The position numbers and the translations under genes are program-made. Under the pieces are notes generated by a model. That model was not told where the DNA came from and made no database searches. It was given only the letters and a program-made list of their open reading frames with translations. A DNA stretch of 28,381 bases from a virus: positions 1 to 28,381 of IMG/VR virus record IMGVR_UViG_3300027911_000053, one strand, 5' to 3'. Shown here piece after piece: positions 4,492 through 7,515 of this stretch; the stretch's first letter is position 1, and each line of letters starts with the position of its first letter.

Positions 4492-6384
4492 ATGGCTACG
4501 AGTCTAACGCTCCCGGATATTAGCAACGACCAGTCGCAACTACCCGAACCACCTCCTACCCCCGCTGGTCTGTCCGAAGCCCAAGCGCAAAGGTTGGAGA
4601 ACGATATCCTCGCGTATACGGACAAGCTGTTCGAGTCCGCGACCCAAGACCGAGAATTCGAATCGTCCGTCAAGTCAACGTTCCGCGCCATCGACGCCTT
4701 GGACGGCCGCATGTGGGGGCCGAGCGCGAGACGTGGCCGCAACCGTCCCGTACTCCCCAAAACTGAGCGCCTCTTCTGGGACGGCGTCGGACTGCTGACG
4801 GATCTCGCTATCGACTTTCAAGTCCGGATGTGGAATCACCTCAACGACTACTCGGACTTCGAAAAACTCCTGAACTCGCTCATCACGCACTGGGTTCAGA
4901 AAAACGGTTACGAGGACAACCAGTACGACGTGATCTTGTACGGCATCTTACACACTGGCCCCGCAAAGATACAATGGAAATCCAGCCTCAACGGCGGACT
5001 CGGCGACGTAGACATGGTGCCGATCGCACCGTGGCAATACGCGACAATCGGCAGCGGTGGCAAGACCCAAGACTCCGAGTGCATCATATATTTCCCTGTC
5101 GTCACCAAAGAATCTCTCATCCGTACGTACGGTCAGACTGCGCGCCGCGTCCAGTGTGATTCGGACTTCTCGGGTGGCGCTTTGCAAGGTCAGTTCAGCC
5201 GTCCGTCTGGCATCAACTCGACGCAATGGGCCGGGATGGCGCAAACCCTAAAGACCGCGCTGGGGATTAAGAAAAACATATCCTCGGACGACACGCCGTT
5301 TCCGATGGCGTTGAAGCGTGAATTCTGGTTGAACGACGATGGTGTCAATGACAGGAGTTACACGGTTACCGTCGGGCCGTCGGACGCCAAGGGGAACCCA
5401 CGTGTGAATTGGGCGTACCGCGTTGAGCCTGGTGAGCGGCTATACCCGCGAGGTCGCGTCATCATCACCGCCGGCGGCTGCGTGCTCGAAGACCAGCCCA
5501 ATCCATACTGGCACGCGATGAAACCGTTTCCCGTGTATCGTCCTCTGCGCGTGCCGTGGAAAATGTTAGGGCAGTCGAGTATACGCCCGTGGATGCAGAT
5601 GAACAGCATCATCAACCGCGTCCTCGGCGGAATGCAGGATTATCTGGATGCCGTCATCGAACCGACACTCGTTGGGCCGAAAGGTGCCATGCCCGCCGCA
5701 GACTGGGATGCGCTGGACGCTGGTGCATCGGGCGGCAAAATCAAGTACAACAACAACGCGCCGAAACCGCCCGAGTTCATGAAGAAGGCCGAGTTCCCGA
5801 TAGCAGCGGCACAACAGTTCATCGACAAGGTTGACCGCGAGCTTGACATGAACAGCGGCTCGTCTGCAATCCAGCAAGCCATGAGCAAGAAGCAAGTCCC
5901 CGGATCGGACTCGCTCGACACGATTCTCAATTCGCGCTCGCTGCCGATTCGTGTCAAGTCTCGTGCGCTGGCTTCGTTCGCGGAAGAGGGCGGTGCCATG
6001 GTGATCGCCGACATGTTGCAGTTTTATTCGGTTAGTCACAGAGTCAACATTCTGGGCGCAAAGGGATTTTCGAGTTCGGATTTCACCCCGATTTACGGAA
6101 GCGGTCTTCCATCTGGGATGAAACCGGAAGAGTACGTGCGCCAGTTTAGCGGTACTGTAAAAAGGGACACGATACTGGAATCACAGAAAGAGGCCAAGAA
6201 GCAAACAGCGTTGGTACTCGCGAAAATGGGGAAACTGTCCGACCGTAATCTGTTTAGGATTCTCGACGACTCGTTCGATTTTGAAAGCAACCGCCGCGAT
6301 CTGCTTGCCGAGGCCAAGGACAAGATTCTGGTGGCGGCGGCAGCGGCGGCAGTTCAGGGGAAAGGGCAGCACAAAAAAGGCTAG
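4492..6384 (+). CDS. Portal (head-tail connector) protein
   Basis: This 630-residue protein starts at ATG 4492. Portal dodecamers sit at one capsid vertex, dock TerL and form the DNA channel. Support comes from size, from position after TerL, and from the sequence pattern: a helical N-terminal region, a beta-rich wing region around residues 150-330 (APWQYATIGSGG, REFWLNDDGV, GRVIITAGG), then a helical stem and clip region with SIRPWMQMNSIINRVLGGMQDYLD (about 362-386) and a long Ala-rich C-terminal helix. Asymmetric residues such as KIKYNNNAPKPPEF resemble the loops of podovirus portals. I do not see a classical short catalytic motif, as expected. No protease domain is fused. The stop overlaps the stop of the convergent HNH gene by 4 nt, leaving no room for a terminator. 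Confidence 0.82.
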   Translation: MATSLTLPDISNDQSQLPEPPPTPAGLSEAQAQRLENDILAYTDKLFESATQDREFESSVKSTFRAIDALDGRMWGPSARRGRNRPVLPKTERLFWDGVGLLTDLAIDFQVRMWNHLNDYSDFEKLLNSLITHWVQKNGYEDNQYDVILYGILHTGPAKIQWKSSLNGGLGDVDMVPIAPWQYATIGSGGKTQDSECIIYFPVVTKESLIRTYGQTARRVQCDSDFSGGALQGQFSRPSGINSTQWAGMAQTLKTALGIKKNISSDDTPFPMALKREFWLNDDGVNDRSYTVTVGPSDAKGNPRVNWAYRVEPGERLYPRGRVIITAGGCVLEDQPNPYWHAMKPFPVYRPLRVPWKMLGQSSIRPWMQMNSIINRVLGGMQDYLDAVIEPTLVGPKGAMPAADWDALDAGASGGKIKYNNNAPKPPEFMKKAEFPIAAAQQFIDKVDRELDMNSGSSAIQQAMSKKQVPGSDSLDTILNSRSLPIRVKSRALASFAEEGGAMVIADMLQFYSVSHRVNILGAKGFSSSDFTPIYGSGLPSGMKPEEYVRQFSGTVKRDTILESQKEAKKQTALVLAKMGKLSDRNLFRILDDSFDFESNRRDLLAEAKDKILVAAAAAAVQGKGQHKKG

Positions 6385-6878
6385 ACAACGTGCTTCCATG
6401 ATTTACCGCTGCGGGCCATGCAGATCGCTGCCTGACTAACGCCGAATACGGCTGCGAGTTCTCTAATCTTTAAGCCCTTTAGACTCCGTATCTGTTTCAC
6501 TTTTTCCTCATTTAGTTTGGACATGGGCTGTCGTGACCCGTGCACGTTTCGACCGGCATCAATTGCATCCTGCATGTTCTGTTGGTGTGTGCCTATCGAT
6601 AGGTGCTTCGGGTTTACGCACGGCGGGTTGTGACAACTGTGACGAACTTCCAGTCCTTTCGGCACCTCACGGCCATTGAATAATTCCCAAGCCGCGATAC
6701 TTGCGTGCTGCCTTCTGCCGTTCTTCGTCACTCTTCCGTATCCGGTTCCGTTTACGTAACCGGGGCCATCCTGATTAAACGTAAACGGTATACAATCGTC
6801 GGTCTGTGTCCTAATTAGTTCAACGAGAGTCTTGAGTGCATCTCCGGGAGCGTTTACTTTACGTGGGGTATCCCACAA
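6381..6878 (-). CDS. HNH homing endonuclease, last gene of a minus-strand cassette
   Basis: This 165-residue protein runs against the surrounding late operon. It has the classical phage HNH order: NGTGYGRV (43-50), HASIAAWELFNGREVPKGLEV (58-78) and the active site with H80, C82, H83, N84, C87, N89 and H92 in HSCHNPPCVNPKHL, followed by GTHQQNMQDA. The C-terminus (LNEEKVKQIRSLKGLKIREL, then FGVSQAAI) is a helix-turn-helix used for target binding. All key residues are present, so the enzyme looks active. The start is TTG 6878, inside the end of the upstream 77-aa gene (25-nt overlap); AAGGA lies 12 nt upstream. The stop overlaps the portal stop tail to tail. The insertion point immediately behind the portal suggests the portal 3' end or the flank as homing site (inference). 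Confidence 0.88.
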   Translation of the reverse strand: MWDTPRKVNAPGDALKTLVELIRTQTDDCIPFTFNQDGPGYVNGTGYGRVTKNGRRQHASIAAWELFNGREVPKGLEVRHSCHNPPCVNPKHLSIGTHQQNMQDAIDAGRNVHGSRQPMSKLNEEKVKQIRSLKGLKIRELAAVFGVSQAAICMARSGKSWKHVV

Positions 6879-7087
6879 AGGGGTGGAGCATCCTTGACAG
6901 AACGCGGCCTCTTACTCATTCCCTTCTGTCTCCACACGTTTCCGCAACGTAGACAAGTTAGAATCGGGCGGGGGTCGATCTCTGGCTTACGCGATTCTAT
7001 GTAGGCTTTACCATAGCAGGCGCGACACAGACCTCGACCCACTTTTCGCTCGTTGTGATTACACGGTTCGGGCCACTCGAAGCTCAT
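6854..7087 (-). CDS. Small zinc-finger protein of the HNH cassette
   Basis: A 77-residue protein. The first half has C9-x-H11...C21-x2-C24 within a G-L-C-R-x-C-Y context, a small zinc finger often found alone or in front of phage HNH nucleases. The second half has C45-x2-C48 and C71, a possible second, incomplete metal site. It starts at ATG 7087, which overlaps the TGA of the preceding 51-aa gene in an ATGA junction. It ends 25 nt inside the HNH gene. This tight packing argues that the three are translated as a unit and that this protein assists DNA recognition or regulation of the endonuclease; the function is inferred. Confidence 0.72.
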   Translation of the reverse strand: MSFEWPEPCNHNERKVGRGLCRACYGKAYIESRKPEIDPRPILTCLRCGNVWRQKGMSKRPRSVKDAPPLCGIPHVK

Positions 7088-7239
7088 CGGTTCGCCTTCG
7101 GTAATGGTCGTACTCTCGGTTTATTCCAGTAGCGCGATTTACATTTCGGGCACTGCATCGGCTCGGTCTTGAGAACTCTTCTACACCACGTGTGCTGGCA
7201 TCGATTACATTTCAACTCGTACGGTATCGGCGTTTTCAT
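7084..7239 (-). CDS. 51-aa zinc-ribbon protein, first gene of the HNH cassette
   Basis: A short gene of 51 codons. The protein has a compact four-cysteine ribbon, C11-x2-C14 and C30-P-x-C33, followed by a basic tail (SRYWNKPRVRPLPKANR). The pattern C-x2-C, an H/T-W dipeptide, C-P-x-C and then W-N-K-P-R is that of a small zinc-ribbon family common in phages and mobile elements, usually beside nucleases; I recognise it by pattern only. The ATG has a near-perfect extended -10 element 6 nt upstream and almost no 5' untranslated region, so its mRNA is probably leaderless. It overlaps the next gene by ATGA. Confidence 0.8.
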   Translation of the reverse strand: MKTPIPYELKCNRCQHTWCRRVLKTEPMQCPKCKSRYWNKPRVRPLPKANR

Positions 7240-7254
7240 GTGCCTATTATATCA
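7240..7254 (-). promoter_or_regulatory. Extended -10 promoter giving a leaderless mRNA
   Basis: Read on the minus strand the sequence is TGATATAATAGGCACATG. TATAAT (7251-7246) is a perfect -10 preceded by the TGN extension (7254-7252). Six bases separate the hexamer from the ATG at 7239, so the usual start point (seventh base after the hexamer) is the A of the ATG. No good -35 hexamer is present at 16-18 bp spacing, which is normal for extended -10 promoters. Confidence 0.62.
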
Positions 7255-7259
7255 CTATC

Positions 7260-7275
7260 ATCGTCAATTGACGAT
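7260..7275. promoter_or_regulatory. Perfect 16-bp palindrome, candidate operator
   Basis: ATCGTCAATTGACGAT equals its own reverse complement over all 16 bases and has no spacer, which favours a dimeric protein-binding site over an RNA hairpin. It begins 8 bp upstream of the extended -10 and covers the -35 position of the minus-strand cassette, so a bound protein would block RNA polymerase. It also contains TTGACG on both strands. The binding protein is unknown; one of the small zinc proteins would be an obvious autoregulator. Confidence 0.5.
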
Positions 7276-7455: not shown

Positions 7456-7515
7456 ATGGCCCGACGCAAAGGACGCGGCAAGAAACGTCATGGCGGCCGC
7501 AAGGGCAAGCGGTAG
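7456..7515 (+). CDS. 19-aa highly basic peptide
   Basis: The peptide MARRKGRGKKRHGGRKGKR has 11 Lys/Arg and one His in 19 residues and is otherwise mostly glycine. The start ATG 7456 is set by AAAGGAG at 7441-7447, 8 nt upstream, one of the best ribosome sites of the window. The same frame is open back to a GTG at 7330, but that extension has no ribosome site and an unlikely composition. Such a peptide should bind nucleic acid or acidic protein surfaces. It is the first gene of the head-gene block on this strand after the minus-strand cassette. A role in DNA condensation, packaging or capsid assembly is speculation. Confidence 0.6.
   Translation: MARRKGRGKKRHGGRKGKR

Follow-up and report, generated by a model that had tools for sequence, protein, structure and literature searches.

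Sequence comparison shows that a small zinc-ribbon gene and the promoter directly in front of it recur as a DNA unit of ~160 bp that is joined to mobile nucleases of unrelated families. The window, by which we mean the whole analysed stretch of 28,381 bases of a virus record, carries such a ribbon gene at the head of an inserted HNH cassette. On balance, we favor an interpretation in which the ribbon is a controller-like module attached to interchangeable mobile nucleases, with binding to an operator predicted. More tentatively, and with slightly more reason for doubt than for acceptance, we propose a mobile ~160-bp controller unit, made up of the zinc ribbon and a promoter that is leaderless and self-regulated, which would be common to unrelated homing endonucleases (HNH, GIY-YIG, and LAGLIDADG) and TnpB, would swap its nuclease partners, and would have in the window a divergent member with an operator sequence of its own.

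An inserted cassette behind the portal gene

The features of the cassette and its promoter are as follows:

7260..7275: candidate operator, a 16-bp perfect palindrome ATCGTCAATTGACGAT over the -35 position
7246..7254, minus strand: extended -10 element TGATATAAT, spaced 6 bp from the start codon, with a leaderless transcript predicted
7084..7239, minus strand: 51-aa zinc-ribbon mini-protein with CxxC...CxxC and YWNKPR, related to the Pyrococcus PF0610 zinc ribbon
6854..7087, minus strand: 77-aa open reading frame (ORF) with a GLCxxCY finger and the first knuckle of a second ribbon
6381..6911, minus strand: HNH frame back to its upstream stop, with ribbon knuckle 2 (CQGCSTPLWDTPRK), HNH_3, and a C-terminal helix-turn-helix (HTH)
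6378..7240, minus strand: approximate extent of the inserted cassette (~0.86 kb), the right edge being uncertain within ~90 bp

All three cassette ORFs are oriented against the portal operon. The 51-aa and 77-aa ORFs overlap through ATGA on the minus strand, and the 77-aa ORF shares 25 nt with a 165-aa ORF on the same strand that begins at a TTG (6381-6878). The six bases AGGCAC separate TGATATAAT (7254-7246) from the ATG at 7239, and the -35 position, TCGTCA, lies 17 nt from the -10 element and under the palindrome. A coordinate check placed the three minus-strand ORFs, the extended -10, and the palindrome where the original prediction had put them, including the exact 6-bp distance to the ATG and the location of the palindrome at -35. 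The sequence TGNTATAAT occurs once in the window (both strands), at the cassette promoter, which also scores highest of all promoter candidates within the first 20 kb. The palindrome is the sole perfect one of at least 14 bp in the 28.4-kb window; shuffled windows contained ~0.6 palindromes of at least 16 bp each, or ~0.001 per 50 bp.

Five IMG/VR relatives of the portal gene (L002 to L006, 75-78% protein identity) lack ~0.86 kb at the position of the cassette. The gap between the portal gene and the next gene, a 19-codon basic ORF, is ~0.2 kb in these contigs versus ~1.07 kb in the window, a difference that fits the cassette length, and the HNH stop codon overlaps that of the portal gene. An empty site behind homologous portal genes had been proposed as something to search for, and its presence in five related contigs supports the predicted inserted, self-promoted endonuclease cassette, which we identify by sequence as a free-standing homing endonuclease that has inserted itself with the portal gene on one side and the 19-codon ORF on the other. 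The right edge is uncertain within ~90 bp on account of a poorly aligning flank, so that the palindrome may or may not have arrived with the insert. The portal region had no close DNA relative among phages. A self-splicing intron was considered and rejected, as Rfam searches of the window and of contigs L002, L006, and L007 returned no match.

Two further observations concern this intergenic region. The 19-aa basic ORF, MARRKGRGKKRHGGRKGKR (7457-7515, plus strand), has a good ribosome-binding site and is kept in the portal relatives as MARKRGRGKKRHGGRKGKR between the portal and the next gene. The string GTCAATT occurs in the empty-site intergenic DNA of L002 (~7910), about where the window palindrome has it (7264-7271), and this sharing could be due to chance or to similarity between target and operator.

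A nuclease gene probably split between two frames

The HNH frame matches HNH_3 with 46.2 bits against a cut-off of 24.8, and PHROG HNH families are matched as well. It remains open upstream of the assumed TTG start, where it reads EAAFCQGCSTPLWDTPRK, and contains the second half of a zinc ribbon, FCQGCSTPLWDTPRK, beginning upstream of the TTG; the corresponding first half is what the 77-aa ORF has at its end. A ribbon hidden Markov model (HMM) built from 100 relatives, with the window excluded, scored 50.5 bits against the 51-aa protein, 11.2 bits against the 77-aa ORF (model positions 3-15), and 8.7 bits against the HNH frame (positions 20-35), and reached 24.5 bits (best domain, positions 3-35) once the latter two were joined. 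The 51-aa protein followed by these two ribbon halves made up the top three in a six-frame scan of 926 window ORFs, and joining both frames lowered the E-value against phrog_22461 from 0.12 to 0.0025. Locus L033 carries an intact single-frame fusion of ribbon, HNH_3, and HTH, and the GLCRACY finger with which the 77-aa ORF begins resembles the N-terminal fingers of HNH_3 proteins in L155, L160, L164, L166, L171, L174, and L180.

The complementary ribbon halves in the two frames, the L033 fusion, and the N-terminal fingers lead us to regard the 77-aa ORF as the front of the HNH gene, and the most plausible reading of ORFs 2 and 3 is a single finger-ribbon-HNH-HTH gene that a frameshift has disrupted. 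The window had been predicted to encode two zinc mini-proteins; the second of these would instead carry a finger and one half of a ribbon whose other half lies in the HNH frame. Three genuine genes, comprising two separate zinc mini-proteins and an HNH protein started at the TTG, would explain why all ORFs are open and overlap as co-translated phage genes do, and re-initiation at TTG 6878 would still yield the catalytic HNH and HTH parts. We nevertheless consider this very improbable, given the split ribbon, the existence of a fused form, and a finger that forms the N-terminal module of HNH_3 proteins; furthermore, searches of viral contigs (single-sequence) and phages returned no relative of the 77-aa ORF as a gene of its own. 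The 165-aa HNH itself had no close relative in viral contigs by single-sequence search. In the frameshifted gene, the HNH and HTH parts lie in an open frame, the finger and ribbon start are in a different one, and TTG 6878 is a possible restart site.

Programmed -1 frameshifting from the 77-aa ORF into the HNH frame was rejected as a candidate because no X-XXY-YYZ heptamer lies in register, and for the same reason decay or assembly error is the more likely origin of the break. The frameshift in the nuclease gene suggests that the window copy is probably decaying, and it could alternatively be an assembly error. The predicted three-gene endonuclease module is supported as an inserted, self-promoted cassette but not as a trio, its middle ORF more plausibly encoding the N-terminus of the HNH protein.

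Ribbon genes, their neighbors, and their promoters

By its sequence, the 51-aa ORF encodes a complete zinc ribbon, and its relatives in viruses number in the hundreds. Alignment shows that the protein fits the pattern CxxC-xxx-W ... CxxC-x-S-xx-W, and its closest solved relative by profile is the PF0610 zinc ribbon (PDB 2gmg; Pfam PF23470; E = 3.9e-6); a fold search with a model of the 51-aa protein gave weak matches, the best again being 2gmg (E = 0.52). PF0610 (105 aa) carries its ribbon behind a winged helix, whereas the mini-protein is the ribbon alone and contains no HTH. A first profile scan returned 37 viral loci and a second 464 relatives, of which the best-scoring 80 were kept as the main sample. 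After removal of duplicates, 109 ribbon loci were available; 18 ribbon loci were in genome contigs.

The gene downstream of the ribbon is a homing-type nuclease (HNH, GIY-YIG, or LAGLIDADG) in ~31 of 95 distinct ribbon loci, plus the fused L033, compared to only ~3-5 of 97 upstream genes; these labels come partly from manual reading of sequences, backed by family searches. Pfam assigned the downstream genes to HNH_3 (10), NUMOD3 (4), OrfB (4), GIY-YIG (2), and AP2 (2), and the upstream genes to HNH (4) and HNH_5 (2), with HNH_3 not among the families listed for the latter, and PHROGs agreed with these counts. The downstream nucleases fall into 11 groups without mutual similarity at E = 1e-5, and ribbons at least 80% alike precede HNH, LAGLIDADG, and NUMOD3 proteins in one case, or HNH and GIY-YIG proteins in another. 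In most cases the ribbon gene overlaps the nuclease gene or lies directly against it, and in the window the HNH gene follows directly after the 51-aa ribbon gene. The ribbon is not dedicated to nucleases, since about two thirds of its loci have no homing-type neighbor.

Individual loci add to the picture of ribbon gene neighborhoods. A TnpB/OrfB-type gene directly follows the same kind of ribbon gene in L096, L097, L116, and L117, and D12-class adenine methyltransferase genes adjoin ribbon genes in the genome contigs L052 and L053. In L007 (3065-5435, with the same cassette in L008 to L011), a zinc ribbon and HNH lie within the terminase large-subunit gene, which is split into pieces of 302 and 198 aa with no Rfam intron match. 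L085 has a second copy of promoter and ribbon ~1 kb upstream, before a second HNH of the same type, so that one contig holds tandem cassettes. ARAGORN found no tRNA beside the LAGLIDADG cassette of L067.

The HNH core of the window is of a family common in phages, and 1250 phage records match it. Its relatives in six known phages have no ribbon in front, and in IMG/VR L033 (the same locus as L154) was the one related HNH_3 locus retrieved that does. Homologous phages with the HNH gene and without the two small genes and the palindrome had been named as evidence against the module, and in this respect the prediction was partly contradicted, by the six known phages and nearly all IMG/VR relatives. 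An ordinary lone HNH insertion, with ribbon, palindrome, and promoter as incidental neighbors, would fit these relatives. We give this reading little credence, because the combination of ribbon and homing nuclease recurs across the 11 unrelated nuclease groups, no extended -10 of this kind occurs in the window besides that of the cassette, and the stretch missing from the empty-site relatives is long enough for both the ribbon and HNH genes.

De novo motif search in the 60 bases upstream of 107 ribbon ORFs yielded ACTTACCTATAGGT, part of a palindrome TTACCTATAGGTAA that overlaps or adjoins a TATACT -10 box. The motif scored at least 8 in 48 of the 107 ribbon upstreams versus 7 of 453 control upstreams. 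Trained without nuclease loci, it found 15 of 32 nuclease loci (0.6 expected), and trained on nuclease loci it found 14 of 75 others (1.5 expected). ACN6GT was enriched at a spacing of 6 only (49 versus ~18), and symmetric covariation inside the motif was only suggestive (Fisher p = 0.08). The motif also precedes ribbons without nuclease neighbors, and about half of the ribbon loci have no clear motif. In many ribbon loci, as in the window, 6-9 nt separate the -10 box from the start codon; in others the distance is 13-21 nt, with a purine-rich stretch. A scan of the collection for TTACYNATARGTTATACTTAT returned five contigs, three with a ribbon ORF after it, one of which was new and again had an HNH-like ORF after the ribbon. 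In the pairs compared, DNA similarity mostly begins at ~-42, at the -35 box, and does not continue past the end of the ribbon ORF. With regard to the proposed search for the same gene trio in other phages, what recurs is a zinc ribbon before nucleases with a close-set palindromic promoter, and a trio was not supported.

These promoters bear on a different role for the ribbon, that of a DNA-binding cofactor of the nuclease acting at the homing site, with the promoter being a strong sigma-70 promoter inherited together with the ribbon. Such a role would agree with a ribbon that is fused in frame to HNH_3 in L033, as it would have been in the window prior to the frameshift, and with the close packing of ribbon and nuclease genes. 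It accounts poorly for a palindromic motif that has fixed spacing, generalizes in cross-validation, and is present before ribbons lacking nuclease neighbors, or for a single ribbon type that pairs with nucleases of unrelated families, and we regard a pure cofactor as rather unlikely.

The window itself departs from the family motif: its upstream region scores 1.6 and has no TTACCTATAGGTAA-like operator, and its palindrome differs in sequence and lies several bases further upstream. The ribbon family as a whole does not have long perfect palindromes as a regular feature; recurring in it is a mostly imperfect, operator-like TTACC/GGTAA motif. Because of this difference, membership of the window rests on its ribbon, nuclease neighbor, and promoter layout, and it is a divergent, probably decaying family member with a different palindrome.

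A putative controller and its known parallels

We propose that the ribbon protein would be made first, from a leaderless transcript, and would bind the operator-like palindrome over its own promoter, and would limit synthesis of the co-transcribed nuclease in the fashion of a controller (C) protein of a restriction-modification operon. The HNH nuclease would cut portal-region DNA free of the cassette, which would then spread by repair. Both leaderless transcription and repression in the window cassette are what we infer from its sequence. The ribbon is the likeliest binder of the palindrome because the operator goes with the ribbon rather than with any one nuclease family, though the binder could also be the nuclease or a regulator of the host. 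Given the ribbon-HNH fusion in L033 and, ancestrally, in the window, the ribbon may also help the nuclease grip DNA, and such a possible targeting role is compatible with that of a controller.

Parts of this arrangement have precedents. The T7-like 7.7C type shares the HNH_3 core and C-terminal HTH of the window HNH, and free-standing phage HNH genes (7.7C type and T4 mob genes) are, like the window cassette, intergenic insertions beside a conserved virion gene with empty sites in relatives. Unlike the one in the window, the HNH genes that we examined in T7-like and other phages stand alone, with no ribbon gene in front. The homing nuclease I-TevI is held down by operator binding over its own promoter (PMC2988022); it has a zinc finger, and its DNA-binding part also binds the own-promoter operator, which resembles the candidate described here. 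However, I-TevI is itself the repressor, whereas the candidate regulator in the window is a separate zinc ribbon made before the nuclease. Operons of C proteins in restriction-modification systems, one of which includes a translational C-nuclease fusion (PMC4824078), resemble the predicted cassette layout in their tiny first gene, palindromic operator at their own promoter, leaderless transcript, and nuclease next in line. C proteins are HTH proteins found with restriction enzymes, whereas the candidate here is a zinc ribbon found mostly with homing nucleases, and the likeness of the 51-aa ribbon to C proteins is therefore meant as one of working principle only.

Searches of an open-access library turned up no account of ribbon genes being paired with homing endonucleases, and a shared controller for homing endonucleases is apparently undescribed. 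Homing endonucleases are usually viewed as solitary selfish genes with their own DNA-binding parts and, in the case of I-TevI, parts for self-repression. If our proposal holds, an interchangeable promoter-regulator unit would serve as a common control layer for selfish nucleases of unrelated families, comparable to the controller proteins of restriction systems, and would provide a marker for such cassettes in viral metagenomes.
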